NCBI GenBank assembly: GCA_009829735.1
Contig: CM020620.1
Coordinates: 21,550,020-21,614,019, forward strand
DNA: 64,000 nt
Reading direction: 5' to 3'
Source of the DNA: Pyropia yezoensis
Lineage: Eukaryota > Rhodophyta > Bangiophyceae > Bangiales > Bangiaceae
The position numbers were made by a program, and so were the translations under genes. This document shows, piece after piece, positions 5,142 through 31,089 of this stretch (its first letter is position 1; each line of letters opens with the position of its first letter). The notes under the pieces were generated by a model that saw only the letters and a program-made list of their open reading frames with translations, did not search any database and was not told where the DNA came from.

Positions 5142-7382
5142 ATGGTGGACGACGTTCCCGTCTCTGCCACCGCCGCCGAGTGTTTCTTGGCGAGCTCGTC
5201 CGAAGACGAGGGCGACCGGGTGACCGTTCGCGTGGCTCCGGACGGTGCTCCGGGCGGTTTGTCGTCCGTGTGCAGCGGCACGACGGCTCCGTCGGGTGGC
5301 GGGCAACCGCGGGTAGCTGCTGCGTCTACCCCTACTCCTCCGGCGGCCCGGATGGCTCCTGTCGCCGGTGCCGGCGCGGCTCAACCTCAAGACGGCGTTG
5401 CCGGCGTGTCGGGCGGTTATGGTGGCACCCCGACCGGGACGGCGGGTCAAGACGGCGCGGGTGCCCGCCCGGGTGGTTCATCCGCGGCTGCGGGTCACGG
5501 GTCTACCCCTGCTGCCCCCGAGGTGCCCCCGTCGGGCTCGGGTGGCGGCGTTGCTCTGCCCGCGGTGCCGCGGGCGTCTGGTGGTCAAGGTGGGTCTCCA
5601 CCGATGGCAGTGGACTCCGGTAGTTACTCCGGGCGGGCGCCCGCCCTTCTTCTTCCTCCTCGGCCCCGTGCACCTCCGGCACCGGTCCATCTGCCGGTGG
5701 GGCTTCCCCCGGCGCCCCCGATTCTTCCTGGTCCTGCCCGGGTTGCCCCGTTGGGTGGCGGCGTCGCCGTGGCGGCGGGTCAACCCGCCATGTCGATGTC
5801 CGACTTGGTGGCTCGGGTTCGCGGCCTGGCTGTGCAAGAGTCAATGGAGTCCGATGGGCGGATGCGGGTGGACTTCCACCTGCCCCATCCCCGTGGAGAG
5901 TCCTCCCGGCGCGTCAAGGTGGACCCGAGTTGGGAGCGGGAGTTAGTGCGGCTGGTCAACCAGCCGAACGCGGTGCGGGTGGAACACCATTGGATCCTGA
6001 GTCAGCCGGACGACCGGCATGCGCAGCTCTGGCGCACCCGGGTGGGACGGGGTGAGGTCTACCTCGACCCCGCCTTCGGGGTATGCGACCTGATTGCCCC
6101 CGCGTTGCCGCGGGAGGTTGACTACCCGGCTAGTGCACGGGGGATTGCGGCGGCGGCGGAGCCGGTTGCGTTTGGGGAGACGGTGGGCGATACCGGTCGG
6201 TATCCCGACTTCGGTTATTACCCGGGGGTATCCCCGTATCTGTCGTTGACGGCTCCCTACCCGCCTATGGCGGGTTTGAAGTCGGCGTCGAGCTGGCGAC
6301 GTAACCATGGTGTCATGGCGGATGCGTTCCGCACCGATATAACGTGTGCGTTGCAGACCGGCAACGGTCGTGCGCCGGTATACACTCCCGTGCGCCCGCC
6401 GCTATGGCAGGAGGGGTGGGAACCCGCCCCTTCTTTCCGGTTTGACACCGGCTCCTGTCTCCGATACTTCGGGAGTGTGTTGGCCTCCCGACCGGTCCAC
6501 CCGTTGCAGGGTACCTTCACCCTTGAGGTTACCCTCGGGCAGGCTTCCTCCTTGCTGTCCGTCCGCCGGCAGGGGCGCCTGTTTCATCTTCCGACGGGTG
6601 TCCGTCGGCACATCGCGCAGTTGGGCGTGGACCTGATAGCCGCCAAGACCGGGTTGGCCCGGAAGTTCGAGGCCCTGCTGGCTGTTCACGATGCCGTGAA
6701 CTGGGCCGGGGTGTTGTCCCTTCCCCCGTACCGGGATCCGCAGGCTGGGGCTTCCCCCTTGCCTCGTCACTCGTTACGTATCCGGCGTACTCAGCCGGGT
6801 GAGCCCAATTGCCATGGGTGGGCGTCCACCGAGGCTGTTGCTGACCTGGGTATTCCCATGGTTATCCGTGACCCTCTTCAGGTCCTTGCCCCGTGGTTTG
6901 GTAACCCAATACCGGCGGCGGTTGGCCGTAGTCCCCGAGAGTGGGGCTCTGCGGGTGGGGAGCGTGAGGTGTCCCGTCGTCGGGCGGAGCCCCGCCGGGG
7001 TTACGGTGGAGCCCCTTCGGTGGGGTCCTACCGGGCCTCATATCAGGCGCCACCGGCTCCGGTGGTGGCCGTGTCGGCTCCTCTGGCTCCTCTGGCTGCG
7101 CCAGTGTCCCCTCCCGCCCCTGTCATACAAGACGGGAGTCCCCGTCTCTGGTATGAGGGCGTTGACGCCCTTGTTGCCCGTGCAATGCGGGAGGATCTCT
7201 TTGTTAGCTGGGGGGATATCCCCCGAGGTGCTGCGCTAGTTGGGTCAGCGCGTTGCTTCGGTGGCGTGCTGGACCGCCTCCAGAAAGCTCTGGAGGACGT
7301 GGAGGCTGGCCGCAGCACCCTCGTTCAGCTATGCACCGAGGTAACTCGGGTGATTGACCGCCGTGACATCGCCGACCGGTAG
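5142..7382 (+). CDS. Antisense ORF of chromovirus A (746 aa, unknown function)
   Basis: This large intact ORF lies opposite to gag-pol, between pol and the 3' LTR. The first third is Ser/Gly/Pro/Ala-rich and probably disordered (about residues 1-210). The middle (about 215-560) is better ordered and contains LRYFGSVLASRPVH (Phe at residue 443) and RRQGRLFHLP (His at 482). These align with FGSV (residue 234) and RRGMLWHLP (275) of the antisense ORF in element C and with RLWFLP of that in element B. A Pro/Ala linker precedes a C-terminal helical segment near VDALVARAMRED. I see no signal peptide, membrane segment or zinc knuckle, so an envelope role is unlikely. The frame has no stop, whereas gag and pol of the same element are broken. 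I do not recognise the family. Confidence 0.75.
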   Translation: MVDDVPVSATAAECFLASSSEDEGDRVTVRVAPDGAPGGLSSVCSGTTAPSGGGQPRVAAASTPTPPAARMAPVAGAGAAQPQDGVAGVSGGYGGTPTGTAGQDGAGARPGGSSAAAGHGSTPAAPEVPPSGSGGGVALPAVPRASGGQGGSPPMAVDSGSYSGRAPALLLPPRPRAPPAPVHLPVGLPPAPPILPGPARVAPLGGGVAVAAGQPAMSMSDLVARVRGLAVQESMESDGRMRVDFHLPHPRGESSRRVKVDPSWERELVRLVNQPNAVRVEHHWILSQPDDRHAQLWRTRVGRGEVYLDPAFGVCDLIAPALPREVDYPASARGIAAAAEPVAFGETVGDTGRYPDFGYYPGVSPYLSLTAPYPPMAGLKSASSWRRNHGVMADAFRTDITCALQTGNGRAPVYTPVRPPLWQEGWEPAPSFRFDTGSCLRYFGSVLASRPVHPLQGTFTLEVTLGQASSLLSVRRQGRLFHLPTGVRRHIAQLGVDLIAAKTGLARKFEALLAVHDAVNWAGVLSLPPYRDPQAGASPLPRHSLRIRRTQPGEPNCHGWASTEAVADLGIPMVIRDPLQVLAPWFGNPIPAAVGRSPREWGSAGGEREVSRRRAEPRRGYGGAPSVGSYRASYQAPPAPVVAVSAPLAPLAAPVSPPAPVIQDGSPRLWYEGVDALVARAMREDLFVSWGDIPRGAALVGSARCFGGVLDRLQKALEDVEAGRSTLVQLCTEVTRVIDRRDIADR

Positions 7383-7923
7383 AGCACGGAGGCATACGCG
7401 CTTTCGCGTGAGTGGCCTCCCTCGGGCAGTGGGTCTACCCACTGAGGAGTGTTATTGTTTGTACGGGAGAGGGACCCGGTGGCCCTTATGGTGGCCGGGT
7501 AGTAGTGAGTATAAACTCATCCCCTTTGGGGGCATTGCTTGCCTCTGTTTGCTGCCCTGGGGAGTACCCCTTCTGGCTCAGTGGTGCCTTGCCTCCCGTC
7601 CAACTTCTTCCGGTTGGTTCTTGCTTGGGGAGGTCATCCTCCCTTACTTTGTGTCTTGGCTTGGGGAGGTCATCCTCCCTTGTAAGCTCCCTAGTTACTT
7701 CGATATCATCGGAGTTAGCCTTTAACTTTAAGTTAACTTATTGAGGTTCAGGATTTACTTAGTTACCTAAGCTTGGCTCTACTTCGTTACCTAAGCTTGG
7801 TTCGACTTAGAAACCTAAGTCTGATTTGACTTAGAAACCTAAGTCTGCCGTAACCATGTGACACCCTACTTAGTAGGTATCAGCCTCACGCCCCAACAGC
7901 CGAAGTCGGTGTCGGTTGGGTTG
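7383..7923. other. Spacer between convergent antisense ORF and pol of element A
   Basis: This 541-bp intercistronic region contains two copies of a GGGGAGGTCATCCTCCCTT hairpin near 7627 and 7665 and the four-unit palindromic array at 7757-7852. No coding potential is seen. Both flanking ORFs end toward it, so it is a natural place for 3' processing signals of two convergent transcripts. Confidence 0.55.
7757..7852. repeat. Four tandem 24-bp units, each a CTTAG...CTAAG palindrome
   Basis: The units start at 7757, 7781, 7805 and 7829. Units 1, 3 and 4 contain CTTAG, three to four bases, then CTAAG, a small hairpin; unit 2 has CTTCG in the left arm. Units 1-2 share GTTACCTAAGCTTGG and units 3-4 share AAACCTAAGTCTG, so the array looks like a duplicated pair. 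It lies between two convergent ORFs. Confidence 0.85.
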
Positions 7924-10519
7924 TTACAGTAGGCGTCGTCGCCTCATGTAAGGCATGAGGAGTTGGCGGGGTATATTTGCCGCCTGTTCCCAGGTGGGTG
8001 AGTCGTATCCGACCCACATAACCTTGACGTACCAGGGTCCTGGTAAGTCCGGGTCGGTGTGTCCGACCACGCTCTCTACTTGGTATGGAATCCCATCCGG
8101 TCCCACCGGGTCATCTGACCGGTGGGTTGTAAGAGCTTCATGTAGCAACCCGGCCGGTACCGGCTGAGGCTGTTCCGGCTTCGGAGCAGGTGTCACATCA
8201 TTGATGTTGATGCGTTGTATCTCCGTATCGGAGAGCAGCATGACAGAGTGATCATCTCTGTGTAAGATCTGGTACGGTCCCTTGACCGGTTGCATAAGCT
8301 TGTTCCCTCGGAACTTCTGGTGTCTGATATAGACCCAGTCACCTGTTACCAGGGTTGCGTTGCGCACCCGTAGCCGGTCGTCGAAGTTCTTCTTGTATCG
8401 AAGTTGTGTTCTGTCAAGGGCACCCTTGAGCTTAGGAATCATCCACGATAGCTTGGCCAACCAAGCTAGGTGGATACGTTCGGCCGGTCGGCCTTTCGGT
8501 GTATCATACCGAGTGCACCTGCCTGGTGGCAGCGTCAGGTTACCGACGCCTAGTGGCATGACCCACTCCAGCGGAGCGATGTTCGTGCTCCGATGTGGCC
8601 TGGCATTGTATGCCAGGGTGAGTACGGACAGAAGCCTGTCCCAAGTGTTTGTGTGCTCGGCCACGTAGCATTGTAGCATCTTGACGATGGTGCGGTTGAA
8701 CCGCTCCACCTGCCCGTTGGTTTGCGGGTGGTAGTCGGATGCCCGACGTGGTTCGATGCCGAACATGCCCAGGACCTTAGTGCAGAACGCTGACGTAAGG
8801 TTTGCTCCGTTGTCGGAGAGTAGTTGCTTCATGACTCCGTATGCACTGATCCAGTGGTCAACCACTGCGTTCATGATGGTGTATGCCGTATCATTCGGGA
8901 TGGCTGCCGCTCGTGACAGCTTAGTGAAGCGGTCAGACATGACCAGGATGTACCTGTTCCCTTCTTCCGTTACCGGAAGTGGCTCGAGTATGTCGATAGC
9001 GACTTGCTCGTTGGGCCCATCGGGTGGGAACAGTTTCATGGCAGACGCCTGCCTATGTAGACTCATGCGGTTACGTGCACAGGGGTGGCATCCCCTTACG
9101 TGGTCGACCACGTCGACAGCCATTGCTGGCCAGTAGAAGAACCTTCGCATTGCTGCGAACATACGTGAACCCCCCGGGTGTCCGGCTGTAGGGTTCTCGT
9201 GTTCTCGTTCCATGACGGCTTGCCGTAAGGACACGGGAACCACGACTTGATGTCGACCATCGGCGGGTGCCCGCCGGTATATGAGTCCGTCTTCATTCTC
9301 CGAGAAGATGCCGGCCGTGCCGGCCAGGAGGTTAGCGCGGTGGCGTCTACAGTCGTCGTCATTGGCTTGTGCCTCGCGGAAGTCCGCGAGGGTCAGTGGG
9401 CATGCTCGGTGTGCCATGGTATGGTCAACCATACCTTGGGTAGCGTTACCCACCATGCAGACCGGTACCACCAGGATGTCCTCGTCCACCGGGCGGGTAT
9501 CCCCGCTCGGGGTGTCGAGTCGAGACAATGCGTCTCCGAGATGGTGGGTTGACCCAGCCTTATACACGGTACGGTAGTCGTGCTCGGCCATCTTTAGCCT
9601 CCATCGGGCTAGCCTCCCATGGCTATCGGAATCCTTGTCACCAAGGTTGAGGAGCCATCGTAGGGGTTCGTGGTCGGACCTCACGATGAACCTGGAGCCC
9701 TCCAGGTATGGACGGAGCAGTTGCACTGCCCATATAACCCCGAGGCACTCACGCTCGGTGGCACTATAGTTACGCTCAGCCGGGTTGAGTGTCCGGCTGA
9801 AGTATCCTACCGGACGTAGGTCCGGGATAACGTTATCGGTACCGATCAACGTCTCTCCCTGTAGCAGGGTGCATCCCACTTGGGTGTCGCACGCATCGAC
9901 ATCGATGACGAAGGTACCCCGTCGGTGCGGTAACGCAAGGACGGGTGGGGATAGTAGGGCTCGCTTCAGCGACTCGAATGCCTCCTCTTCGCTAGGCGAA
10001 GGGGGTTGGAGTACCTTGGGCAGGGTACTGCTCGTAAGAAGTCGGTTTAGCTATCCGAGCGAAGTCCTTGACGAACCGTCGGTATACATTGCACATTCCC
10101 AGGAAGCTCTTGAGCTGTGTCTGGGTGTTAGGGAACCGGGCATCCCGGAGTGCCCGGGTATTGGCTTCGAGTACCCCTAGTTTACCAGGGGTTATCTGGT
10201 GGCCCAGATACTCGACCGTCTGTTGGAAGAAGGCGCACTTCTTCAGACGCAGGGTTACCCCGGCGTTCCGCAAGAGGGTGAGTACCTCGTCAACATGTTG
10301 CACATGGTCATCCATGTTACGCGAGAAGACGATGACGTCATCGAGGTACACTAGGCAGTTACGCCACTTCACCCCCGACAGTATAATGTCGATAGCCCGC
10401 TGGAATGTAGCAGGGGCGTTGGACAATCCGAAGGGCATCCTTAGGAACTCGTACACTCCACTGTGACAGACGAATGCCGTCTTGGAGATATCTTCGTCCG
10501 CCACCGGGATCTGCCAGTA
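7924..10519 (-). pseudogene. Pol of element A, C-terminal part (RT to chromodomain), frameshifted
   Basis: Reading from 10519 down, this continues the RT from YWQIPVADED, with VYLDDVIVFS as catalytic motif. After a frameshift near 10041-10046 it goes on to RNase H, integrase (zinc-binding region, AIDILEPLP, LSDNGAN and the Glu in NGQVERFN) and a C-terminal chromodomain (WYVKVMWVGYDSPTWEQA) just before the stop at 7924. The frame break replaces a few codons after AKP and splits the region into two reading frames. The N-terminal half of pol is 12 kb away, at 22277-23850, because of the nested insertions. Confidence 0.85.
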
Positions 10520-10547
10520 TCCGGTGTAGCAGAAGTCACCTTGAAAT

Positions 10548-11119
10548 TGTAGCATCCCTGGCCCCGACTTGGCGCCGACCCGGGACTGCAACCAGAGGGC
10601 ACCAGGTGCCAGAACACGCCCGCCGTGTGGCGATGGTTGGCGGCCGTGGCCCGTGCCCGGCACTGGGATGCGGTGGACTACGCTATCCACACGCGAGAGA
10701 GGGATTTCTGATGTGTTTTTGCATATTTGTGAGGGACTTGATTTGAGAGAATTTGAGTGTGAGATTAGTGAGTGGGAATAGAATTAGTAGTGATAGTGGC
10801 CCCCGACCTGACGAGGTTAGACTCGGGTCGGGGCCACTCGGGGTTATGGGGGGGCTACCGGGCCAACGTGCCGGGGTTCCCCCAGATGCACGTTAAGAGG
10901 GACAGCGAGGCGCCCTCGGCCCGCGCCCTCAGGGAAAAAGACAACTGCGCGTTTGCTTTCCTCTTCCCCGTGTGCACTACCGTGCGTATCTGTTTGCCCT
11001 GCAAGCAGGCACGTGAGGCAACAGGCATACCATTCTCGTAGTTCCCCTTTCTGCGTTACCTGTCCCTTTCCCCCGAGGGATATTGACACGTGTCTGAGAG
11101 GATCGAGTTTTATACCACA
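10548..11119 (+). repeat. 5' LTR of element B
   Basis: 572 bp, starting TGTAGCATCC and ending ATACCACA. It contains an 8-bp-arm hairpin, CCCCGACC...GGTCGGGG, near 10800-10833. It is identical to 21504-22075 as far as I can read. Confidence 0.92.
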
Positions 11120-11122
11120 TAT

Positions 11123-11328: not shown

Positions 11329-13089
11329 ATGGCTACCCTCCCTGGCACGACGGTGCCCGAAGGGGTAGACCCCGCGTCCCTTGACGCATCCCTGGTCACC
11401 GCGGGGGACGGTGCCCAACCCGGCGTTCTCCCTACGGGTGAAGCAGACCTGGGCGGGACATCCGGTAGTGGACTGGAGTCTACAGGCGGCCAAGTACCCC
11501 CTGCTCCCGTTCCTCCGGCTGTTCCTCCTGTGGGAGCCACCCCGGGGTCAACGGCGTTTGAGTCCGCTCGCAGCAGACGTCTCCCTCCTGTCGGTTCTAC
11601 TCTTCAACCTCCAGGGATAGCCCCTGGTGTGTTTACTCCTGGACCCACACATGGCAGCTGGGTGTATACACCTCTTCCTGTGGGCACTAGCAGTGCCAGA
11701 GGCACCGCTATGACTGGTTCTACGGGTCTTCCTGAGACTTCGACTCCTGGGACCGGCCAAGCTTTTCCTCCCCTTGCGTCCTATGGGGCGGGGAGCTCCA
11801 AGACCGGTGACCGGAGCAGCCGTAGGCGTCGGCGTCGTCGCCGCCGCTCTAGCACCAGCGAGACCAGTTCCTCCAGCTCTGAGGAGGGATATGACTGGGA
11901 TGCATCTCCCGGTCCTACCCGGCGCAGGCTAGTCGAGTTCGACTTCCCTGCCCACCAAGTGGGAGATGCCACCCTGAACAAGGTCACGTATTGGGGTAAC
12001 TACCGGCTGGAGAACCAAGACCAAGGTTACACCCGGAAGATGGCCAAGAAGATGGCATCCCTGAACCGGCGAATGCAGCCGAGCTTTGGGGGACATCCTA
12101 AGTTTTCCGGGAAGAGACCGGCGCTTATCTTTGCCTTCCTGCGCCGGTTTGTCAAGGCATGCAATGACAACGATGTGTCCGAGGGCAAGGCTCTCTATCT
12201 CCTGGTTAACTTCATGACCGGAGAAGCGGAACAGCGGTTTGCACAGGTTCTACCAGACTCTGCCGGGCACATTGTTGGACGTACCGTCGCGAGTTATCCG
12301 GAGGCGGTCAACTGGCTCCTGTCCAACTACGCAGACGCGGACTCCCTGCGTAAGGCAGTCGGTAGGCTGAACCGGGCAACCATGGAGAGACAAGAGACTC
12401 CAGAGGCGTTCGCCCGTCGTGTCCGGGAGATGAGCGATGCTTGTGGCAACGTTTACCCTGAGGACAGGCTCAAGATGATCTTCTCGGAAGGGCTTCCTGA
12501 ATATCTTCAAGTGGATGCGGAGAACTACAACCAGGAACATCAAGAACATACCTTCCAGCAGTTGATGGCCTACACCCAGGGCAAGCACCGGCAAGCCAAG
12601 GCCCTCCAGGCTCCTATGGTATCAACCCCCAAGCCGTTGTCGCGAGTTCGTCCCGGACCCGACAAGTATAAGGGAGGTGATAACCCTGTACCGGTACTCG
12701 CAGTTGGCGAGGCCTCACCCATGGAGTCAAGGGACAAGTGGGGCGGCTTCGTTTCTAAGGAGCAACCTTCCCTGGTCGCCCCCAAGCAGATCAGGAACCA
12801 GCGGTTCCGGTCTTGCTGGCTGTGCCAGAAGGAGGATCATATGTCCTACCAGTGCCCGACCATTCCCGAGGATCTCCAGGAGAAACTCAAGCGTCAAGGA
12901 CTGGTGTTTGCAAAGGCGGTCAACTGGGCTGACCGGCGGGCACCCTCCAAGATGGACAAGGCACAGGTACATGCCATCCGAGTGGCAACCTTACAGAGCA
13001 TCACGGAGGCTCTGGCAAGGGAAGCTCCTACGGACTTTGACCTGGAGACCGAAACCTCTAAGGACTCCTCGGAGCCGGGAAACGAGTAG
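11329..13089 (+). CDS. Gag of element B (586 aa)
   Basis: An intact gag. The N-terminal half is Pro/Gly/Ser-rich, with an Arg-rich patch (RRRRRRRRSSTSETSSSS region, about residues 165-185). A helical capsid-like domain with FAFLRRFVKACNDNDVSEG and LLSNYADADSLRKAVGRLN follows, then a single CCHC knuckle, CWLCQKEDHMSYQC, near residue 500. ATG 11329 is the first start after the leader. The last codons are CCG GGA AAC GAG TAG, so the gag stop lies three bases after a G-GGA-AAC slippery heptamer. This is the only uninterrupted gag frame besides that of element C. Confidence 0.88.
   Translation: MATLPGTTVPEGVDPASLDASLVTAGDGAQPGVLPTGEADLGGTSGSGLESTGGQVPPAPVPPAVPPVGATPGSTAFESARSRRLPPVGSTLQPPGIAPGVFTPGPTHGSWVYTPLPVGTSSARGTAMTGSTGLPETSTPGTGQAFPPLASYGAGSSKTGDRSSRRRRRRRRRSSTSETSSSSSEEGYDWDASPGPTRRRLVEFDFPAHQVGDATLNKVTYWGNYRLENQDQGYTRKMAKKMASLNRRMQPSFGGHPKFSGKRPALIFAFLRRFVKACNDNDVSEGKALYLLVNFMTGEAEQRFAQVLPDSAGHIVGRTVASYPEAVNWLLSNYADADSLRKAVGRLNRATMERQETPEAFARRVREMSDACGNVYPEDRLKMIFSEGLPEYLQVDAENYNQEHQEHTFQQLMAYTQGKHRQAKALQAPMVSTPKPLSRVRPGPDKYKGGDNPVPVLAVGEASPMESRDKWGGFVSKEQPSLVAPKQIRNQRFRSCWLCQKEDHMSYQCPTIPEDLQEKLKRQGLVFAKAVNWADRRAPSKMDKAQVHAIRVATLQSITEALAREAPTDFDLETETSKDSSEPGNE
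13077..13083 (+). promoter_or_regulatory. Candidate -1 frameshift site, GGGAAAC (element B)
   Basis: The heptamer fits X-XXY-YYZ in the gag frame. From its last base the -1 frame is open without a stop into the protease (CGA GTA GGG ... 13218 and on). The same heptamer stands at the same place in A (23851-23857) and C (35187-35193), again with pol in the -1 frame. Confidence 0.7.
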
Positions 13090-16000
13090 GGCAGGCGCTC
13101 TCCCCAAGTGTCTTCCCGAATCTCCAACGGCAGGGTACTTCTACCTGTTCTCCCCTTGCGTGCCGGGAGAAAGGACGGCAGTTACCTGCTCAACCGGTAG
13201 CCGCCTGGACACCCTGTTTGTTCAAGGGGACCTTGCTCGTCCTGCGTAAGGAAAACCTCAAGATTAATGCTCGTATGCGTGTGGGGGATAGCCTCCCCCA
13301 AGCTGTTACGCCGGTGGTCGACACGGGAGCCGGACCAAGCGTCATCACTGAGAACCTGTTACCTCCGGGCTGGCGTCGACATGCCTGGAAAGCGCCTACC
13401 AAGACCCGGATTGTAGACGCATCAGGTCAAACCCTACGACCGCTTGGCCGTCTTCCCGTCGCCATCTATGTCAACAATGAACCAATGCTTTTTCCCTTTC
13501 TAGTAGTCAAGACCTTATCAGTCCCCCTCATCCTAGGCTGGGACTTCCAGAAGCAGCATGTCAAGAGCATCCTACCCGGAGAAGGAAAGGTGCAGTTCAA
13601 CCATGGGTTTGTGTCACCAGTGCTGGAGCACCTGGACACCAAGGTTCGTGTGGCCAAGAACCAGAAGGAACGCATCCCACCCTCTACCTTGACCCTCATC
13701 AAACCGGTGCTCCTACCTCCTCGCTCGGAGACCAAGGTTCAAGTCACGACCCGGACTGCAGGTCAATGCCTGATCTACGGACGCAAGGAATTTCTGGCGA
13801 AACACCGATTATACCTAGCCCACGGACACCACAAGAAGGTGGAGAGGCACACCCCGTTCTCGGTGCTGATCGTCAACGTGAGCCGGAAGCCAATAACCCT
13901 CGCCAAGGGCACTCGAGTTGGTACAGCAGAGCCTTACCGGGGGTCCGCCCGCGCTATGAGCAAGGAAGACCTCTTCAACCTGCAACAAGAGCTGGCATCC
14001 AACTTGACGGCCTTAGACGTATCTCCGGAACAAGAGCAGGCTGGCCGTACTACTCCGAAGCCCGAACAAGCACCGCCCAGGATGCCGAAGGTCAACCAAG
14101 AAAACGTCCCTCCCGACTTGAAGGAGGCACTGGAGAAGCTTCTCCAGGAATATCGGCACCTGTGGTCTGGAGAGCTGGGCAAGATGGACGCCACCCTACA
14201 CCGGATTCAACTCAAGCCAGATGCCAAACCAGTGCACATGCACCCATACCGGGCTGGACCTCATCGCCGGGATGAGATTGAGAAGCAGGTTAACAAGATG
14301 CTCAAGATGGATGTTATCGAGCCGTCTGATGGCGAGTGGGCTTTCCCGGTGGTAGTCGTCCCGAAACCTGGCGGTCACTTCCGTTTCTGCGTTGACTACA
14401 GACGCCTGAACGAGATGACAGTCAAGGATGTATACCCGATACCCCGGATGGATGATTGCCTCGACTTTCTTGGTGATGCCACCCTCTTCTCGACGCTGGA
14501 TTGTAATGCCGGTTACTGGCAGATCCCTCTGGCTGACGAGGACAAGGACAAGACAACCTTCACGTGCCACATGGGACTGTTCCGGTGCAAGCGTCTCCCT
14601 TTTGGTCTCACTAATGCTCCGGCAACCTTCCAGAGAGCCATCGACATCATCCTGTCGGGGCTAAGGTGGAGAACATGTTTGGTCTACCTGGACGACATCA
14701 TTGTTTTCTCCAAGACCCCAGCGGAACACCTGGAGCACCTTCGAGAGGTCCTGGCCCTCCTGTCCAAGGCTGGAGTTACCCTCAAGGCCGAGAAGTGCCA
14801 CCTGTTTGAGACTGAGGTGGAGTACCTGGGGCACGTGCTGAGTCCGGGGGAGCTCCGAGTCAACGAGAAGAACATCAAGGCCCTCCGGCATGCACGGCAA
14901 CCTAAAACCCAGACGGAACTCAAGAGCTTCCTGGGTATGTGCAACGTCTACCGCCGGTTCGTACGGGACTACGCTCTGATTGCCCGGCCCTTGACCAAGC
15001 TTACTAGCAAGAAGCTTCCAGCACAACTCCCGGTGTTCGACGAGAAGCAGACAGCAGCCTTCGAAGAGCTCAAGAAGCGCCTGACCACCACTCCAGTACT
15101 GGCGTTACCCAAGCGGGAGGGTCAGGTTGTTCTGGAGACTGACGCCTGTGGCGTCCAGGTGGGGTGCTCACTACTCCAGCAACAACCTGATGGGCACTTC
15201 CTCCCGATAGGCTACTACAGTCGCGTCTTGACTCCAGCCGAGAAGAACTATTCCACGACCGAGCGCGAGTGCTTGGCGGTCGTCTGGGCTTGCTTCCTGT
15301 TACGTCCATATCTTGAAGGACAAGAGTTCCTCATCCGGACGGACCACGCCAGTCTAAGGTGGCTGCTATGCATGGACAGCAGTCAAGGAAGGGTCGCCCG
15401 GTGGCGCCTACGCCTTTCGGAGTTCAAGTACAAGGTGTGCACCAGAGCAGGGAGGGAGCACCACTGCGCCGACACCATGTCCAGGCTGGAGACTCCTGCA
15501 GCCGATACCGGTCCTATCCCGGAGGAAATACCTTGCTTCATCCTCCCGAATGTCGGACGTGGCTGGCACGCTCCCCTGTACGAGACACCTGACGCTCATC
15601 AACCGGTAACCATTCACCGGATGCTGGAGGCACAATTGACGGACCCTCAATGCTTGGAGCTTCGCCACCAAATGGACCTGAACCGGAACAGTCGCTTCTC
15701 CGAGTCTACAGACGGACTCCTGGTACGGGTGGTCACCCTTCGATGGGGCAACTCAAGTCTACGTACCCGGAGCCTACGGACTGACATNNNNNNNNNNNNN
15801 NNNNNNNNNNNNNNNNNNNNNNNNNNNNNNNNNNNNNNNNNNNNNNNNNNNNNNNNNNNNNNNNNNNNNNNNNNNNNNNNNNNNNNNNNNNNNNNNNNNN
15901 NNNNNNNNNNNNNNNNNNNNNNNNNNNNNNNNNNNNNNNNNNNNNNNNNNNNNNNNNNNNNNNNNNNNNNNNNNNNNNNNNNNNNNNNNNNNNNNNNNNN

Positions 16001-19000: not shown

Positions 19001-19055
19001 AGACCCTGGGGACGAGACGAGCTCACCCGCAACGGATGCGGAACAAGAGGATTGA
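13084..19055 (+). CDS. Pol of element B (protease-RT-RNase H-integrase-chromodomain), broken by an assembly gap
   Basis: A Ty3 polyprotein in the -1 frame relative to gag. Protease VVDTGAGPSVI (about 13315); RT with FCVDYRRLNE and VYLDDIIVFS (14685 on); RNase H with ETDACGVQVG, TERECLAVVWA and RTDHASLRWLL; integrase with an HHCC region (17690-17815), SMDILGPLP, LTDNGPQFA and the Glu of NGQVERFN (18173); and a C-terminal chromodomain, LYLRVRWFGFNPADDTWE (about 18820). The gap at 15788-16287 and the repeated segment 14410-15787/16288-17665 make the frame appear split; single-base indels cluster near the gap. When the duplicate is ignored every domain occurs once and in order. I infer an intact gene. 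Confidence 0.82.
15788..16287. other. Gap of exactly 500 N
   Basis: A placeholder-length gap. The 1,378 bases before it (14410-15787) and the 1,378 bases after it (16288-17665) are the same sequence apart from about six single-base indels, so the gap probably joins two overlapping contigs rather than spanning missing sequence. Confidence 0.9.
16288..17665 (+). repeat. Second copy of 14410-15787 (probable false duplication)
   Basis: It begins inside the RT at ACGAGATGACAGTC and ends in the RNase H/integrase linker at GGACTGACAT. Differences from the first copy are single-base insertions or deletions. Four lie in the first 550 bases of this copy and two at the end of the first copy, next to the gap. 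That is the error pattern of raw contig ends, not of divergence. Confidence 0.85.
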
Positions 19056-21318: not shown

Positions 21319-21503
21319 ACCGTCCAGACTCCGGGGAACGAGAGGGCCAAGGTGAAGGAACGGAAGGGGGGGGGCAGAATCGGGGCAGGTGATCGTGACC
21401 GGGGTGAAGACGCTCGACCTCGGCACCGGTGTGGACGTGCTCGAGGCTGTGCACGGTGGCACCTGGTTCGGCCCGAGGACGTGCCGGACTAGGGAGGGAG
21501 CTA

Positions 21504-22075
21504 TGTAGCATCCCTGGCCCCGACTTGGCGCCGACCCGGGACTGCAACCAGAGGGCACCAGGTGCCAGAACACGCCCGCCGTGTGGCGATGGTTGGCGGC
21601 CGTGGCCCGTGCCCGGCACTGGGATGCGGTGGACTACGCTATCCACACGCGAGAGAGGGATTTCTGATGTGTTTTTGCATATTTGTGAGGGACTTGATTT
21701 GAGAGAATTTGAGTGTGAGATTAGTGAGTGGGAATAGAATTAGTAGTGATAGTGGCCCCCGACCTGACGAGGTTAGACTCGGGTCGGGGCCACTCGGGGT
21801 TATGGGGGGGCTACCGGGCCAACGTGCCGGGGTTCCCCCAGATGCACGTTAAGAGGGACAGCGAGGCGCCCTCGGCCCGCGCCCTCAGGGAAAAAGACAA
21901 CTGCGCGTTTGCTTTCCTCTTCCCCGTGTGCACTACCGTGCGTATCTGTTTGCCCTGCAAGCAGGCACGTGAGGCAACAGGCATACCATTCTCGTAGTTC
22001 CCCTTTCTGCGTTACCTGTCCCTTTCCCCCGAGGGATATTGACACGTGTCTGAGAGGATCGAGTTTTATACCACA
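21504..22075 (+). repeat. 3' LTR of element B
   Basis: 572 bp, identical to 10548-11119 by eye. It is preceded by a purine run (AGGGAGGGAG) at about 21490-21500, the polypurine tract. The TSD GAAAT follows at 22076-22080, inside the 214-bp element. Confidence 0.92.
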
Positions 22076-22080
22076 GAAAT

Positions 22081-22271
22081 CGCCGGAAAAATCGATGTTG
22101 GATGCCCGGAATCGAACCCACGCCATGGAACATATGTTAACCAGGCCTTGTGGACCACTGCGCCACGGGTTGAATCCTTGACATCTTGGGCCAGATATGG
22201 GCTTTCCAGCCCAAATCCTTACAGCACCGATCGCTGGGTCCGTTATACGTGGCAGTCGCGATACTGCCACA
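22081..22271 (-). mobile_element. 214-bp TG...CA element with tRNA-like Pol III boxes (main part)
   Basis: This sits in the RT of element A and is split by element B: 23 bp lie at 10525-10547 and 191 bp here. The target duplication TCCGG is at 10520-10524 and 22272-22276. The ends TGTAGCAG...CTGCCACA match the ends of the LTRs nearby, so it looks like a solo LTR or a miniature LTR element. On minus it contains a perfect tRNA A box, TGGCGCAGTGG (22155-22165), a perfect B box, GGTTCGATTCC (22108-22118), at tRNA-like spacing, and a T5 run just downstream (22088-22092). The acceptor and T stems are degenerate, so it is not a functional tRNA. A terminal hairpin (GTGGCAGT/ACTGCCAC) lies at about 22246-22270. 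Confidence 0.75.
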
Positions 22272-22276
22272 TCCGG

Positions 22277-23850
22277 CATTGCAGTCGATGGTGGTAAACA
22301 CCGTAGCTTCCCCCTGGGAGTCGATGCATTCATCCATCCTTGGTAAAGGGTATGAGTCCTTCTTGGTAACCAAGTTGAGGCGTCGATAATCGATGCAAAA
22401 CCGAGGGGTTTGATCCTTCTTCGGTACGATTACGACTGGGGCACCCCACTCCGACATCGAAGGTCGTATCACCTTCGCTTCACTCATCCTCTTCACTTCT
22501 CCATCAACGATCTCTCGTTGCATGGGTCCCGCTCGGTGCGGTTGTGACCGGGCGGGGCGTGCGCCTGGTACCAGGTCTATACGATGTTGGGTTGCCCCAA
22601 TGGTACCCAAGGCTCCGTCTGTCCACATGACGTCATGCTTTCTTAACATCCGTCGTACCCCTTCGGCTACCGAAGGGGGAAGGTGGTCGAGGTCAGCCTC
22701 GGCCAGTGCCTTCAATGCTTCTTGGTCCTTCGGCGGAATATCCGCCGGTAATGATGGTCGACTAGGCTTCCCGTGATCGGGTTGCTGTCGCTCGGTGGTC
22801 TCGGCGACCGCCAGCACCTCAAGTGGTTCCACTTGACCTTCCTTGTCAGGGGTAAGGATATCTCCTTCGTAGAGCTCGGCAATCCCGAGGATAGTTCCCT
22901 TCGGAAGGGTGACTGCCCTACGGCGATAGTTCGCCATCACCAGGAGGGACGACCCTCCTGCTGGGAGGTCTATGAGACCGTTGGCCATGGTCAACCCATG
23001 GCGCTTGTACGTCCGCAGGTTGGACCGGACTCTGCAGATGCCTGCGAGGTCGCAGTTAACCGGGAGGACTGTCTCCGACAACGGCTCAAAGCGAGTTCGC
23101 TTGGCCAACCGAAGTGTCTTCGGCTCGACGCTTGCGTACACCTCAGCCACGTTAACGTGGCTCCCTTGTAGCGTCAGGTCCCTGACGATAGCCGTGTGTC
23201 CTCGCTTCGTCCCGTCGGCTTCTTGCAGCTCGACGGTCCTCCGGCCTGGCCGGATTGCATCCACGTGAACGTTGATGAAGGTGCATCCCAGTATGCAGGG
23301 CACCGATAGGGTCTCACACACCAGGAAGTCGACTTCCGTGGTGAGTTCCCCGATGGTAACCCGCAGCGACATCGCTGCGGTCGTGCGAATGAGGCGACCA
23401 TTCGCGTCCTTGATGGTGGGTCCCCGAGTCACTCTGACTCGCGGAAGCCACTTGCCCGGGAGGGTGTCCTTCCGGATAAGGTTGGGTCCAGCCCCTGTAT
23501 CCAGTACAGGGTAGTACGATCGTGTCGACTGGGGGTCAACCCCCAGTGTGGCTGATACCTTGAAGTTCTCCAAGGTGAACAGCACATGTTCTACACCGAT
23601 ATCCGGTGTTTCTCGGGCATCCTGGACAGGGCCCTTGTCTGGTTCCATGTGACGGGCTTCCCGTCCTCTCCTCCCAACCTTGGAGGTTGGTCATCAATCC
23701 CCTGACGCCGTGTCGTCGGGGCCGGAAGGTGTACCCGGGGGCTGATGCGGCGTCGGCTCAACCGCGCTCTCCGTGGGGCTTTCCCCGCGGTACTCCGGGG
23801 TGGCTTGCTTGGGTTACCCCAGCGCCCCCCGGTCATCCTTCCTCTTACTC
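22277..23850 (-). pseudogene. Pol of element A, N-terminal part (protease and start of RT)
   Basis: Aspartic protease with VLDTGAGPNLI, a linker, then the RT with FCIDYRRLN and TTIDCNAG, at which point the 214-bp element is inserted (TSD TCCGG at 22272-22276). From the slippery site at 23851-23857 the -1 frame is open to a stop at 23591, whereas the protease frame runs from 23648. An indel in the overlap therefore breaks the polyprotein. It would otherwise be a standard Ty3 pol. Confidence 0.8.
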
Positions 23851-26034
23851 GTTTCCCGCCCTTGGTAGGGTGCTGTCCGCCGGGACATCCGGCTGAGGAG
23901 GTGCCTCCTCGACGGCCAGTACTCCACCTGGAGCTGGCTGCCTACCCGGTGCGGGTCCGGGTGCTCTGGCGGGATACCCCCCGGTGGATGCCTTGCGTTG
24001 CGCCGCTGCCCGCCGAGACTCCTCGGGGATGAGTGGGCAGGAAGACACCCAGTGCTGGGGATCCCCACACAACATACATCCGGACGTGCCGGTCCCCCCT
24101 TGAGTTCGCATCGGGGTGACCCCGTAGCTGCGGTTGCCTCCCTCGGGCGCCCGAGTGCCTGCTCCCTGGTAGGCCTTGGGTCCTTGGGTCAACCGGAACA
24201 TGGACTCCCCCAACCGGTTGGGTCGGCCCGCAATCTGCGGGGGTGCCTCCGTGCGCACCGCCCATGTTGGCAAGGGTTGGTGAGGGTTACCCGTCACCGG
24301 GGAGTACCCCGTAGTCCATACGTACGGGACGCGACGTCCCGTGCCCTCGCTGACCTGGAACTGGGTCCCCGCCGGAGCAATGTACGCTACCGTACCGTGC
24401 TCATCAATCACCGGCGTCGCCGGTAGCAACAGGTGGCCCTGTTGGTCAACTAGAGGTTCACCCTCGCCCGTAGGGGTATGTTCGGTCGCCACCAGTACTG
24501 GTGCGGCCTTACGTTCCACCTTCTCTTGCCTCGGTACCGGGGTAAGACTGGGCTTGCCTCCCTCACCCTTGGGCTTCGGGGCCAAGGCACATTCCGGGTG
24601 TAGAACCCGGTAGGCGTCCCCTAGGGACTTGCACATATGCATCAGTCGACTGAAGTTCGTCCGGGCCGTATTGGCTCCCCGTGCGGATATCCGCACGTAG
24701 TTGGGTACTCCTGCGAACAGGATGGCCCGTAGTTCCCCTTCTCCGAGGAGCTTCCCCAGCTCGTAGTCGAGCTCTTGGATCCGGCGTCCAAACATCTCTT
24801 CATCCTCCCAGCTCTGGGCGGTGGCAGTGCGCAGAGCCCGGTAGCGGTCCTCGCACTTGTCCTCACTGAGGTAACTGCTCAGCAGCTCCTTGAGAATCCC
24901 ACGGTAATCCATGGGGGTGGCCGCGACCCTCATTCCCGGCATCGGGGATGCCTGGCGAAGGATGCCTCGCACCCGTTCATCAACAAAGAACGGGAGGATC
25001 TCCAGGGCCAGCCCCTCGTTAACGAGGGCCTTGTCCGCGGCTGCCTTGAAGCTAGTCAAGAAGCCGATGACTGCCAACGGGCGTCCGTTCGGCCCTCCGA
25101 ACATAGGGACTCCCTTCATAAGGGTCTGCATAGAGCGGATCGCCCGATGCGACGTATTACGCATCGATTCCGATACGGTGGTAGAGCGGTCCTCCTAACG
25201 ATAACGTTCCGGAGTAAGAACCGACCGGAAGACCTCGTTGACGATCTCCGTGTCAGCGTCCTGGATATCCAGTCGCTTAGCCAGTTGGTGAGCAAACTCA
25301 TCGGACTCCATCCGCTTCAGTAGGCTCGCAGTGACCTGCGCGGTCATAGCTTCCACCACTGAAGATGGTACTTCAGGCGTCGGCACCTCGGGAACCCGAG
25401 TCGCCTGGCCTCCTTCGTCGTGGGGATACTGTAAGAGGGTACCCCCTCCGCCAATAACCGACTCTCAACCGGCGTAAGTATCCGCCGGGTCGTGTCCGCG
25501 GAGTCCGCTTCGGGTGCTCCGAGCGTATCGCTCCGTGTGACTCCGTTCCAACTCTGCCGACGAGTCGGATCCATACCCCATTGTGTCCGGGGGTCGTCCA
25601 GGAGTAGCAACACCAGGGTTGACCCTGGTGGACTCCGAAAGTAGTCCGGCCGGTTCAAACCGTACCGGTGTGGGAGGAACACGTCGGGGTCCCGTCGTGT
25701 GGCGTGTTGACATCAACACTGCCATTGCGTCCTCCGTCCGCTCTTGACGAGCGTCGAGTCCGGAAAACCGGGCCTCGATGCGGGCCAATGATGCCATCAG
25801 GGAATCCCCTGGTGAAGGAGGCGGCGGAGTGAGGTCGGTCGACGACAGTTGAGGCGGGCCCCCGCCTCCTGCCGTCCGAGCCGTGCCAAACGTCGATCCG
25901 GCACCGGAAAGCATTGGCGTCTCAATGTTGTCGATCGGGTTCCCGATCCCGGTTCCCGTAGTCACCTCCGGAGTCGGCGTCGACGCCGATCCGTCATCTT
26001 GAACGTTCCCCGTCTCTTGGGTAGACATAGTCAC
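23845..26034 (-). pseudogene. Gag of element A with two in-frame stops
   Basis: A single frame of about 730 codons runs from ATG at 26034 to TAA at 23845. It is interrupted by TGA at 25465-25467 and TAG at 25195-25197. The N-terminal third is Pro/Ser/Thr-rich. The middle is a helical capsid-like region with LTSFKAAADKALV and FAGVPNYV. The C-terminus has a CCHC zinc knuckle, CMLCGDPQHWVSSC. It ends in GNE before the stop, as do the gags of B and C, because the slippery heptamer GGGAAAC lies there. Confidence 0.8.
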
Positions 26035-26235: not shown

Positions 26236-26253
26236 CCCCTGCTGCTCCACCAA
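26236..26253 (-). promoter_or_regulatory. Primer-binding site of element A
   Basis: On minus the sequence TTGGTGGAGCAGCAGGGG directly follows the 5' LTR. It complements the 3' end of a tRNA ending ...CTGCTCC-A-CCA. The same 18 nt occur next to the 5' LTRs of B (11123-11140) and C (37229-37246). Confidence 0.85.
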
Positions 26254-26616
26254 TGTAGCACAATAGGAATCCGTCGCACGTCCACTCTCAGGGAACACTC
26301 ACCAAGGGGGATCGGCGCCAACGTCACCGGGAGGCCAAGGTTGCTGTCCTTGGAGCGCAAGCCACGGGACCAAGATGGGAGCCCAAATGGGAGGGGTTTG
26401 TTGTTCTACCTCGGCCGGCGTTGGATTCGCCGCCGGCCCCCACGTTATAAACCCTCGGAGACACTACTAACTACCCTCCACCCCAAGATGCAAGTCCCTC
26501 TGGTCATACGTAACTTATAGATACCGTGACCAGTACGGACTATAAACTTGAAAGCCAAGGATTAGAAGTAGCCCCCCTAATATTAGGGTCACAATACGGC
26601 CAACCATATTGCTACA
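26254..26616 (-). repeat. 5' LTR of element A
   Basis: 363 bp, the partner of 4132-4494. On minus it is followed by the primer-binding site. The TSD GCCCG follows at 26617-26621, within the transposase gene. Confidence 0.9.
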
Positions 26617-26621
26617 GCCCG

Positions 26622-28335: not shown

Positions 28336-28806
28336 TGTGGCAAAAACCACAAGCACACACGGCACCCAAGTTGGGGCGGTGTGCAAGGGCTTCCTCCCGT
28401 GTCGGGGGAACCGGAAGAAGTGCAAGTCGCACACACTCTGTCCCTGTTGTGGGGCAAACCCCCCACGGACAAACAAGAGGATGGTGTGTGGTCCAACAGT
28501 TTCTTGGTCGGGACGGGGACGCAGGGCCGAGCCCCGCTGTCCCTCCCCTTATCCCCCCAGGGTCCACTCAGAATCTCGCCACTCAGAATCTCCCACCCCA
28601 GCACCTGCCCACCGGGCCACACGAAAATTCAAGACGATAAATGCAGAAAACCGTCAAATCCAAGTTGGATTTACTACTAAGCTAACTATCCCAAACTTAG
28701 GGAATATGGACCCAAATGCAGGGGGAGGAACGGGTCAGGCTAGTGGCCTGCCGCCCCTTGCATGGCACGTGTTGCCCCCCCCTACCTGGGGGTCAATACT
28801 GCCACA
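28336..28806 (-). repeat. 3' LTR of element C
   Basis: 471 bp, starting TGTGGCA and ending TGCCACA on plus. It is followed by CTCCCCTCTCCTCAG, the minus-strand polypurine tract. Four differences from 37247-37717 (99.2% identity). Confidence 0.92.
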
Positions 28807-29145
28807 CTCCCCTCTCCTCAGTTCCGACCGACCCGGTCGGCCCTGTGAGGGGGTGCGTAAACGCACGTCTCGGCGTTGGGGGCGCGACTTGCTGTCCCCC
28901 CCTTGAGTACGTAACGCGGATGTGGAGGCGGTCACGTTGACCGCCCCTCTCCTCAAGCTTGCCCACTCGGCAGCTTGCTCTCCTCAGTTCACACTTCACC
29001 ATCACCACCACCTCCCCTTCACCTTCCACTGGGCCGCCTCACGCTGGGAAGGCCACCCGTATACCCACGATCCGAGTCCCCCTCAACTCGAGGCGGGTCT
29101 CGTGCTGCGATAGCCAGAGCGTCTCTCCCCAACTTGGGGAGAGCC

Positions 29146-31089
29146 ATGGCGACTCCGGGAGTGGAGACGGACTCTCTTGACGAGCGCATGGAGGACACCT
29201 CCTACGGTGCAGCACCCGCCGGGACTTCCGGCGGGGGCTCCGCGATCGCTCCGGGGGACGGGACTCCCGCGTCACCCGGCTTTGGGTTGACGGCGGGGTC
29301 TCCCCCGGAGGCGGGACAAGTTGTCCCGCGTGAGGCCTTGGGGCGGTGGTTTTACCCCGCTTGGCCTCTCTATGAGGAGGGGCTGACTGTTCTTCGCTGT
29401 GGCCGACTTGGCGCAGCGATGGGCCGGGTATGGGACCGCCTACGGGAGAAGCATCCCCGTAGGGTCGGGTTCCCTGCCGGCTTCAGGACGGACCAGTTTG
29501 CCTTCCTGGACGATAAGGAGGTTGAGGACGTTCAGCGGGCCAAGGCCATGGTGGACCGCGGGGGAACTATCCCGGGTCCCGGCGACTTGCCGACCTTCAC
29601 GTGGGACGCTGTGGCAACTCGCCCACCGTACCTTCACGAGGCCGATCCGCACACTCATCACTTTGATGTGCGGATGGAGAAAGACTTCCGGCGAGGTCCC
29701 TACTTGGTGACCTCGGCTCAACTTGAGTTTCCTCAACAGTCTGCTGCCAGTAAGGAGCAGTACTATCCGAAGAAGCCCGAGTGGTGGCCTCAAGTTGAGG
29801 TCCCCTACGGGTTCCCGGCGTTGTTGCCACGGTTGCTTGACCACTTCGGCTCCGTCATGTTGTCGGCTGCCCCTGATCACCTGGTGTGGGCCATGTTGGC
29901 CACCCAGTGGCTCCTCGAGGTCATGTCGACCTGGGTGTCCTGTGTTCACCGGCGGGGGATGCTCTGGCATCTCCCCCTCCGGCTCATCCAAGGTTTGGAA
30001 CAGCTCACCCCTCAGCTAGTTGCTGAGGGGTGCTCATCAGGAAAACTCACTCTACTTGAGGAGAAGCTCCGGCTCCATAAGTTTATCGAGTGGGAGAGCA
30101 TTGAGCACAAGTTGCGCCGCCCCACTCATGGGCCCAAGGACGATGGCGCACTTCGCCAGTTCGTGTGGGTCGCTCGTGAACTTCACGACGGCCGTGTGGT
30201 CCTACGAGAGGGGTTGGGCATCGGGGACTACCCGTATGCCCCGGGGGTGGATCGCCACACTGCGCCACCCCCGGACAAGCCCATAGTTATGGCTGTGCCC
30301 TCATATGATGACCATATGACTCAACCTACTGCGGGGGCCCCAAGTCGGGGTCGCAGTTACACCCGGGTACCGCCACCTCGGCGGGCCCCTCCGCTTCCTC
30401 CCGTTCCTTTCCAACCTCACGAGAACATCCCGATCAGCGTGGCCGTGGAGTCTTCCACCCCGGTGTCCCCCAACTTGGGGGCCACCTTCCTGACGGTATA
30501 CCCCAAGTTGGTGTTGCCGCCCACGCCTCTAACCTCAGAGATGATGATCACCACGTTGGTGCGCACCATTTCCTGGTTGGCCGCGTCGACCGCAACCCTA
30601 CAGAGTTCCGAGACTCCTCAACTTGAGGAGCGCGTTCGTCCTGCAGTGGCGACCGAGAGTTGCGAGTCGGTGGCGGAGTTTATGACAGCCGAGTTGGCTC
30701 GCATTGGGGCTATTATGCCCCAGCCAGTCCCACTTGGGCGTGGCAAACGTCGCGCGAGCCGGGCATACTCGCCTCCTCGCCGTCGTCGCCGACACTCGCG
30801 GCGCTCTCCTTCCGTATCGGAAGACGAGTTGTCTTACTCCGTTTCGGAGTACTCTACCCCGTCGGAGACGGAGTCTGTCCAGCGTCTGCGTCGCAAACTT
30901 GCGCGCAAGACCAGGCAGAAGAGTGGCCACGGTCGGCGCCACTTGCGCGACCGTGAGGGGCGCGACGGTTCCGACTTGGAGCCGCCGCCCCCTCCAAGGA
31001 GTGGAGACCGTTATCGGCGTGGGTCTCGCCGCTCGCCTCCACGTGAGGGCGAAGGCCGTGGAGTGGGAGAGTCTATCATGCGTGCCTAG
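29146..31089 (+). CDS. Antisense ORF of chromovirus C (647 aa, unknown function)
   Basis: An intact ORF opposite to gag-pol, ending 111 bp from the pol stop. ATG 29146 (MATPGVETD) is the best start, and the frame is open upstream. The first 60 residues are Gly/Ser-rich. The central domain (about 60-390) includes RRGPYLVTSAQLEF, YYPKKPEWWPQVEVPYGF (206 on), LLDHFGSVMLS (Phe 234), LATQWLLEV and RRGMLWHLPLRL (His 275), the block shared with the antisense ORFs of A and B. A Pro-rich linker leads to a helical segment (MMITTLVRTISWLAAS), then an Arg/Ser-rich tail (about 525-647) like an RS domain, suggesting nuclear RNA or DNA contact. No known retroelement domain is seen. Confidence 0.8.
   Translation: MATPGVETDSLDERMEDTSYGAAPAGTSGGGSAIAPGDGTPASPGFGLTAGSPPEAGQVVPREALGRWFYPAWPLYEEGLTVLRCGRLGAAMGRVWDRLREKHPRRVGFPAGFRTDQFAFLDDKEVEDVQRAKAMVDRGGTIPGPGDLPTFTWDAVATRPPYLHEADPHTHHFDVRMEKDFRRGPYLVTSAQLEFPQQSAASKEQYYPKKPEWWPQVEVPYGFPALLPRLLDHFGSVMLSAAPDHLVWAMLATQWLLEVMSTWVSCVHRRGMLWHLPLRLIQGLEQLTPQLVAEGCSSGKLTLLEEKLRLHKFIEWESIEHKLRRPTHGPKDDGALRQFVWVARELHDGRVVLREGLGIGDYPYAPGVDRHTAPPPDKPIVMAVPSYDDHMTQPTAGAPSRGRSYTRVPPPRRAPPLPPVPFQPHENIPISVAVESSTPVSPNLGATFLTVYPKLVLPPTPLTSEMMITTLVRTISWLAASTATLQSSETPQLEERVRPAVATESCESVAEFMTAELARIGAIMPQPVPLGRGKRRASRAYSPPRRRRRHSRRSPSVSEDELSYSVSEYSTPSETESVQRLRRKLARKTRQKSGHGRRHLRDREGRDGSDLEPPPPPRSGDRYRRGSRRSPPREGEGRGVGESIMRA

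Follow-up and report, generated by a model that had tools for sequence, protein, structure and literature searches.

A 64,000-nucleotide stretch of the red alga Pyropia yezoensis (assembly GCA_009829735.1, contig CM020620.1, positions 21,550,020 to 21,614,019; hereafter the window) contains three long terminal repeat (LTR) retrotransposons, here called A, B, and C, each with a long open reading frame (ORF) that lies antisense to gag-pol in the interval from the pol stop to the 3' LTR. The question raised by this locus is whether these antisense ORFs (asORFs) are related genes that are maintained as such, and, if so, which elements carry them and what their product may do. The assembly comprises 107.5 Mb, 48.0% of the genome is reported to be repeats, and LTR retrotransposons are the main class (PMC7423979; this and the other papers below are cited from excerpts). 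Our overall reading, which we regard as probable, is that the asORF is an ancestral antisense gene in an abundant red-algal Ty3/gypsy lineage and makes an accessory protein.

Homology of the antisense proteins

The coordinates and lengths (647-746 codons) of the three asORFs that had been proposed from the DNA letters were confirmed, and the core that their products were said to share is above chance by both blastp and profile comparison. The frames and their cores, with lengths in amino acids (aa), are as follows.

5142..7382, plus strand: asORF of A, 746 aa (ORF list and translation)
6006..6713, plus strand: core of the A asORF, residues 289-524 (core profile, 24.0 bits)
19201..21318, minus strand: asORF of B, 705 aa (ORF list and translation)
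20242..20727, minus strand: core of the B asORF, residues 198-359 (core profile, 50.9 bits)
29146..31089, plus strand: asORF of C, 647 aa (ORF list and translation; selection tests)
29368..30249, plus strand: core of the C asORF, residues 75-368 (itself a member of the profile; 36% identical to family D, described below)

Direct blastp comparison aligned the A and C proteins (24% identity over 230 columns, E 1.4e-8) and the B and C proteins (25% over 138 columns, E 5.7e-8), while A and B gave low-complexity matches alone and no direct match in the core. A core profile built from C, D, and database relatives, with A and B left out, recovered B at 50.9 bits (E 7.8e-15) and A at 24.0 bits, the top score of 1000 A/B shuffles being 3.7 bits; against nine gag and pol pieces, two were listed at E <=1 and the better one scored 0.4 bits. 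With a full-length profile, B reached 43.5 bits and an A variant (L050) 15.9 bits (top shuffle, 6.8). Pairwise and profile scores in the core are therefore significant. The predicted spacing between the FGSV and HLP motifs (39 residues for A, 41 for C) proved exact, whereas one other proposed motif is misplaced, C's LA..W..EV and B's LAANHW..EV being out of register in the profile alignment.

Among the best 150 places of a search with the integrase zinc domain, a fourth family, D, was recognised, whose integrase end shares 60% identity with that of C and which carries an asORF at the same place after pol (the D LTR is unmapped). The D frame is open in two copies (L051 and L053), and the L053 product matches C with 36% identity over 287 aa (E 3.6e-42) and, more weakly, B (E 2.8e-6) and A (E 0.002). 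The asORF is homologous across the four element families A-D. Another copy that belongs to D by its pol (L043) keeps the asORF start and shows no core match, and no recognisable asORF core was found in two variant 'e' elements located beside an A gag (L046 and L047). Identity to C in the pol pieces decreases from D (60%) through B (46%) to A (41%), and identity in the asORF follows with 36%, 25%, and 24%; because the order of divergence is the same in both, it suggests that the asORF was inherited vertically with pol.

A protein database search with the D core yielded 12 relatives among 3921 candidates. Four of the D-core relatives are Pyropia vietnamensis proteins annotated as hypothetical (56-60% identical), one is an ena protein (43%), and another four come from jgi (39-42%); the match at 97% (P0003) is probably from Pyropia yezoensis itself. 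At least 11 relatives, four of them new, were obtained by an alignment-based search, and at least one by a search with the full-length C protein, in which low-complexity words were probably crowding the result; both searches covered their best 8000 candidates. A scan of viral contigs produced three pattern stretches and no relative. Splicing at the 5' end of P0003 was considered and rejected, as the extra N-terminal peptide is mostly present, slightly altered, directly upstream of genomic D copies. An ordinary host gene is also unlikely, given that the ORF follows pol in four families and is enclosed by the LTRs and target duplications of A, B, and C, but it may originally have been captured from the host in ancient times.

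Constraint on the antisense frame

Copies of the asORF were collected in two ways. By protein score, the best of 3659 (C), 34963 (A), and 23763 (B) first-look candidates were taken, which is a biased sample; among these best-scored copies, 66/68 of C, 47/60 of A, and 63/63 of B have no internal stops. In order to lower the bias, further loci were chosen by their distance from the reverse transcriptase (RT) motif on contig C1; of the first matches listed there, 12 out of 14 were used for C-type and 10 out of 15 for A-type (two C-type loci were omitted for overlap and five A-type loci without a fixed rule). One of these C loci is all N; asORF homology was found in nine of the 11 readable ones (six at full coverage) and was absent from two, and eight of the 10 A loci have it (five at a coverage of at least 0.86), with none in the other two. 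Four partial matches (L059 and L062 of C, L070 and L073 of A) were dropped on account of forced alignment, with ratios of nonsynonymous to synonymous substitution rates (dN/dS) near 1.

The evidence for constraint comes mainly from C. Across 30 score-selected C copies, 67 of the two-state changes common to at least two copies are synonymous and 9 are nonsynonymous; with the window copy taken out, the remaining 29 have a pooled dN/dS of 0.08 and one stop in total in the ORF frame. The other five frames have a mean of 10-24 stops per copy and dN/dS values of 1.5-6.3, except for frame -1 (0.22, with approximately 24 stops per copy). In seven RT-anchored C copies, 46 synonymous and four nonsynonymous changes are shared (singletons, 31/17), and dN/dS is 0.06-0.22 between subfamilies. 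When both sets are combined (29+7 copies, window copy out), changes present in at least three copies are 70 synonymous and 6 nonsynonymous, versus 77 and 84 among rarer ones (Fisher p 4e-12, sites treated as independent), and the shared changes indicate constraint throughout the protein (N-terminal arm 11/1, core 30/2, C-terminal arm 29/3). As 48% of the rare changes are synonymous, compared with 25.5% expected, which reflects either mutation bias or residual selection, the contrast with rare changes is the safer test. Compared with the window copy, C copies have a dN/dS of 0.12-0.59 in the asORF and 0.14-0.57 in the 3' end of pol where it could be aligned. For A, the core gives 0.08-0.18 between subfamilies (L068 versus L067, L069, L072, and L075). 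Purifying selection across copies of the same family, which the original prediction had named as a decisive test, was thus found mainly in C and more weakly in A. We conclude that the asORF almost certainly codes for a protein under selection.

Several observations weigh against this reading and against the wider one given at the outset. Window A is not among the 15 matches listed for the full-length profile, and the database relatives are known here as protein sequences alone. The best B copies are 99-100% identical and too alike for dN/dS. Within subfamilies, dN/dS in C rises to 0.34-0.86, with 1-5 synonymous changes present, and of the changes found in the window C copy alone, 15 are nonsynonymous and one is synonymous, as expected of neutral decay in an unconstrained copy after insertion. 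The A core gives 0.24-0.43 within the other subfamily and 0.42 between window A and L050; for the whole A asORF, comparison with window A gives 0.37-0.48 in seven copies (L067, L068, L069, L072, L075, L049, and L050) and 0.60 in the broken L048 (the truncated L071 has 0.46), and the single D pair is weaker as well (0.44). A frame of at least 600 aa is kept in 1/6 full-coverage C copies and 2/5 A copies with a coverage of at least 0.86, and small frameshifting indels occur in most RT-anchored copies (in C, 1.9-kb alignments that are 95-97% identical have as many as 25 gap columns). Long-read assembly error and decay are indistinguishable here as sources of these frameshifts; we attribute them mainly to assembly error, because a 500-N scaffold gap flanked by a 1.38-kb duplicated overlap is present within the window. 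At the protein level, the AlphaFold model of window B is poor (predicted local distance difference test, pLDDT, 38) and was not used, and the PDB fold search tied no known activity to the fold of the D core.

Anatomy and lineage of the carrier elements

The remaining parts of the three elements in the window are listed below (TSD, target-site duplication).

4132..4494, minus strand: 3' LTR of A, 98.6% identical to 26254-26616; TSD GCCCG
26254..26616, minus strand: 5' LTR of A, pairs with 4132-4494; TSD GCCCG
7924..9879, minus strand: A pol piece, RNase H and integrase (Pfam)
9992..10690, minus strand: A pol piece, RT, continuing into the B LTR (60-62% identity to B and C RT)
22137..23648, minus strand: A pol piece, protease and start of RT (35-36% identity to B and C pol)
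23845..25164, minus strand: A gag piece (28% to B and C gag)
10548..11119, plus strand: 5' LTR of B, 100% identical to 21504-22075; TSD GAAAT
21504..22075, plus strand: 3' LTR of B, pairs with 10548-11119; TSD GAAAT
11329..13089, plus strand: B gag, CCHC-like knuckle (zf-CCHC E 0.018, under the cut-off)
13218..16688, plus strand: 5' part of B pol, broken by a 500-N gap (sequence comparison)
16818..19055, plus strand: 3' part of B pol, RNase H, integrase, and divergent chromodomain (Pfam; Chromo E 1.9e-4, under the cut-off)
28336..28806, minus strand: 3' LTR of C, 99.2% identical to 37247-37717; TSD GCAGG
37247..37717, minus strand: 5' LTR of C, pairs with 28336-28806; TSD GCAGG
31201..35184, minus strand: C pol, 1327 aa, divergent chromodomain at its end (Pfam; Chromo E 0.0013, under the cut-off)
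35181..37151, minus strand: C gag, CCHC knuckle (zf-CCHC over the cut-off)

All three are complete LTR structures with TG...CA ends and 5-bp target duplications, and they appear young because their LTRs are 98.6% (A), 100% (B), and 99.2% (C) identical. The same primer-binding-site-like stretch can be recognised by eye just inside each 5' LTR. Pol and asORF converge tail-to-tail in each element, with a stop-to-stop gap of 541 bp in A, 145 bp in B, and 111 bp in C, and the asORF start codon lies 647, 185, and 339 bp, respectively, from the 3' LTR. Placement of an antisense ORF between pol and the 3' LTR, as in Retand-type elements, was found in A, B, and C alike. B is nested inside A and thereby splits A pol; as had been noted before, the antisense frame of A is open while B divides its pol into three open pieces and its gag is partial (residue 1 of the gag piece aligns at residue 210 of the L037 frame). 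C pol occupies one frame with RVT_1, RNase H, and integrase over the cut-off and a weak Asp_protease_2 match (E 0.06), and the protease label of the A piece at 22137..23648 derives from its position and this weak match. The Ty3/gypsy order (gag, protease, RT, RNase H, integrase) was observed in C, and in B and A by similarity.

With regard to the lineage, its RT motif has 2134 matches in the genome (fragments included), while the reversed control pattern has none. The elements had been described as chromoviruses, and this label holds loosely: at the integrase C-termini, the Pfam Chromo match is below the cut-off in B, C, and D, and A has no match at E 0.1, but the aligned ends of A-D match six canonical chromodomain ends of the same genome by hhalign (probability 92.7, E 4.2e-7, one pair). 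It is because the Pfam match is weak or absent and yet the profiles agree that we place A, B, and C in a lineage with a putative divergent chromodomain, that is, chromoviruses in a loose sense. For comparison, 13 regions of 4 kb downstream of zinc-domain matches were sampled. Twelve of them share one gypsy pol end (57-98% identical to each other), and the one copy scanned with Pfam (L033) has a canonical chromodomain (Chromo E 1.4e-14); the thirteenth is the D copy L043 described above. With blastp and phmmer at E 0.01, the 118 ORFs of at least 150 aa in all 13 gave no match to A, B, or C, and the best core-profile value there is E 0.12. Sharing of the ORF among chromodomain elements, which had been envisaged, is thus seen in the divergent lineage A-D, while no such ORF was found in the 12 regions of the canonical chromovirus lineage; it seems to mark one lineage rather than algal chromoviruses generally. 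A 2012 report that found no retrotransposon chromodomain in expressed sequence tags of Porphyra yezoensis (PMC3350952) needs an update.

Additional features were observed in or near these elements. GC-rich hairpins are predicted, with no shuffle control, at 4495-4584, 21414-21503, and 28807-28896, on the element-sense strand immediately ahead of the 3' LTR in each of A, B, and C. The 500-N gap in B pol (15788-16287) is flanked by a 1.38-kb direct repeat of 99.6% identity (14410-17665), which is most likely an unjoined assembly overlap. An ORF at 1816-4398 has a weak tnp2-type transposase match (E 4e-4, under the cut-off), and the A target duplication (4127-4131) falls within it; because of this position, A may have inserted in an old DNA transposon. 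Nesting was also observed at L070, where sequence encoding a portion of a C asORF interrupts the asORF region of an A copy. A tandem satellite with a 1384-bp unit occupies 48204-64000 and reaches the window end; its twelve copies are identical across the 300 bases compared per copy.

The protein, its possible roles, and known counterparts

The antisense proteins had been described as an unrecognised family, and this stands: there is no Pfam match over the cut-off, and Pfam, PDB sequence, and PDB fold searches of the asORF proteins gave nothing above chance. DUF6214 for A (E 0.046) and HemK (E 1.6) were put aside as noise. Among 17 family members searched with HMMER filters on, DUF6214 alone was listed at E <=5 and no plant mobile domain (PF10536) was found. 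AlphaFold predicts a confident helical domain for the D core (pLDDT 82.1; predicted template modelling score 0.82). Outside the core, the N-terminal arms of A, B, and D contain a putative docking-type motif, LLPPxPR.

5649..5669, plus strand: LLPPxPR in A (7/20000 shuffles of A)
21217..21237, minus strand: LLPPxPR in B (16/20000 shuffles of B)

For D, the motif arises in 21/20000 shuffles of its own sequence. It was detected in 8/18 other sequences scanned (the A variant L050 and P0003-P0009), the 10 without it including fragments and the more distant P0010-P0014, and in 0/9 gag and pol pieces; a six-frame translation of the collected loci (563110 residues) has 10 matches, with A, D, and other loci pooled. 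C has a looser form alone, located after the core. No membrane segment is clear from hydropathy alone (best 19-residue values of 1.23-1.54 in A-D, 1.28 in P0010, and 1.71 in P0011), and an env-like protein was rejected, since the ORF is antisense rather than sense and lacks such a clear segment. The net charge of the core ranges from -11 to +4.5 among the proteins and is not consistently basic; basic clusters occur in B, C, and D only, at differing positions, with no common nuclear signal. The RS-like tail proposed as a clue to function is indeed present in C, but it is special to C and a weak clue.

We suggest that the common ancestor of the A-D lineage would already have had a third gene on the strand opposite gag-pol, reading towards the pol stop, whose product of approximately 640-750 aa would combine a helical core with long proline-rich arms (predicted from composition to be disordered) and the docking-type motif in A, B, and D. 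By analogy with the antisense gene of the plant element Grande, it may be transcribed independently of gag-pol from a separate antisense promoter located in the 3' LTR or close to it, and its protein may be a trans-acting accessory factor that regulates the element life cycle, most likely in the nucleus and directed at chromatin or RNA of the element itself (in transcription, export, or evasion of silencing). A trans-acting accessory protein is, on this analogy, a reasonably likely product, whereas any single specific activity assigned to it is doubtful. Only tentatively, and with more doubt than belief, might one go further and propose an undescribed fold, antisense-encoded since before the family split and independent of the plant Retand genes, that acts as an anti-silencing or regulatory factor.

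Among narrower readings, the protein could be a silencing suppressor that shields the element from the host by binding double-stranded or small RNA or, via its proline-rich arms, a silencing factor of the host. Transcripts converging on the tail-to-tail junction of pol and asORF could form double-stranded RNA, the copy number of the lineage is very high by its RT-motif matches, the LLPPxPR motif is conserved and docking-like, and a model of the plant Tekay antisense ORF (aORF) is reported to resemble double-stranded RNA-binding proteins (PMC11728184); on the other side stand the core charge and the lack of any RNA-binding domain by Pfam or PDB fold, and we consider this role unlikely, although it is the least unlikely of the four rivals. 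A role in steering integration or nuclear import, complementing the divergent chromodomain, would agree with the presence of the asORF in the weak-chromodomain lineage and its absence from the sampled canonical-chromodomain regions, but two lineages amount to one comparison and the proteins share no nuclear signal, so that it appears rather improbable. The protein might also be a distant member of Transposase_28 (TRP28), a DNA-binding regulator kept in or shared with red-algal elements. A GF..P ... LW pattern presumably resembles that of TRP28. The position and orientation are the same as those of the Retand aORF (PMC11963269). At E <=10, PF04195 gave no candidate anywhere in the genome, and it matched 0/17 family members (HMMER filters drop most weak matches); PMC11963269 reports TRP28 from flowering plants only. 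This membership is quite improbable, somewhat more so than the role in integration.

The reading most opposed to a gene is that GC-rich DNA or a regulatory antisense RNA holds the frame open as a by-product while the protein is unused. GC content is 0.60-0.66 in 2-kb windows over the ORFs, and the rare variants are less skewed than the shared ones (77/84), but the 70/6 ratio of shared changes, the stops that fill the other frames, and protein-level homology at approximately 25% identity all speak for coding, and a by-product is extremely improbable; at the coding level it is already refuted, barring another overlapping coding frame.

A selected accessory gene, the reading we prefer, has several counterparts. 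The original prediction pointed to antisense ORFs after pol in the Tat lineage, and these are known there but not confined to it: they have been described in Grande, RIRE2, Retand, PvRetro13, and the fungal Boty (PMC7264820). The Retand/Tat ORF (aORF-3R) resembles the present one in being antisense, between pol and the 3' LTR, and kept across families (PMC11963269 and PMC7264820). It is known from non-chromoviruses of flowering plants; the A-D elements have a putative divergent chromodomain by profile comparison. Its Transposase_28 (PF04195) protein differs by sequence and occurs in 97% of Retand clusters (PMC11963269). Tekay chromoviruses carry 5' aORFs (PMC11728184) that likewise encode an extra, conserved, proline-rich, and largely disordered protein in a chromodomain element, but the location is 5', the length is 400 aa, and, in the excerpt of that paper, the protein is mostly disordered without a comparable folded core. 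Boty of Botrytis has an antisense ORF between pol and the 3' LTR in a non-plant host, although a fungal one, and is likened here by description rather than by sequence (PMC7264820). The closest model for how the asORF could work, also likened by description alone, is gene23 of maize Grande, which is antisense and is reported to have its own promoter upstream and a nuclear product (PMC7264820).

In full-text literature (few subscription journals; titles and abstracts among the matches listed), we found no antisense ORF in a red-algal element. What appears to be new here is the protein family and the red-algal setting, the arrangement of an antisense gene after pol being already known. In the papers cited here, such genes are discussed mainly for flowering-plant Retand elements and their function is given as unknown; a second protein family at this position in red algae, and one under purifying selection, suggests repeated gain or retention of a counter-transcribed accessory gene by LTR retrotransposons. 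The role of this gene is testable, because the elements are young, the families have many copies, and the host is a sequenced farmed seaweed. A further likeness concerns the DNA around the gene. Tandem repeats are present in this region in about half of the Retand elements surveyed (PMC11963269), and in the D copy L052 a GC-rich segment upstream of the asORF start (2051-2227; seen by eye in L051) contains an imperfect 95-bp repeat in 1.9 copies.

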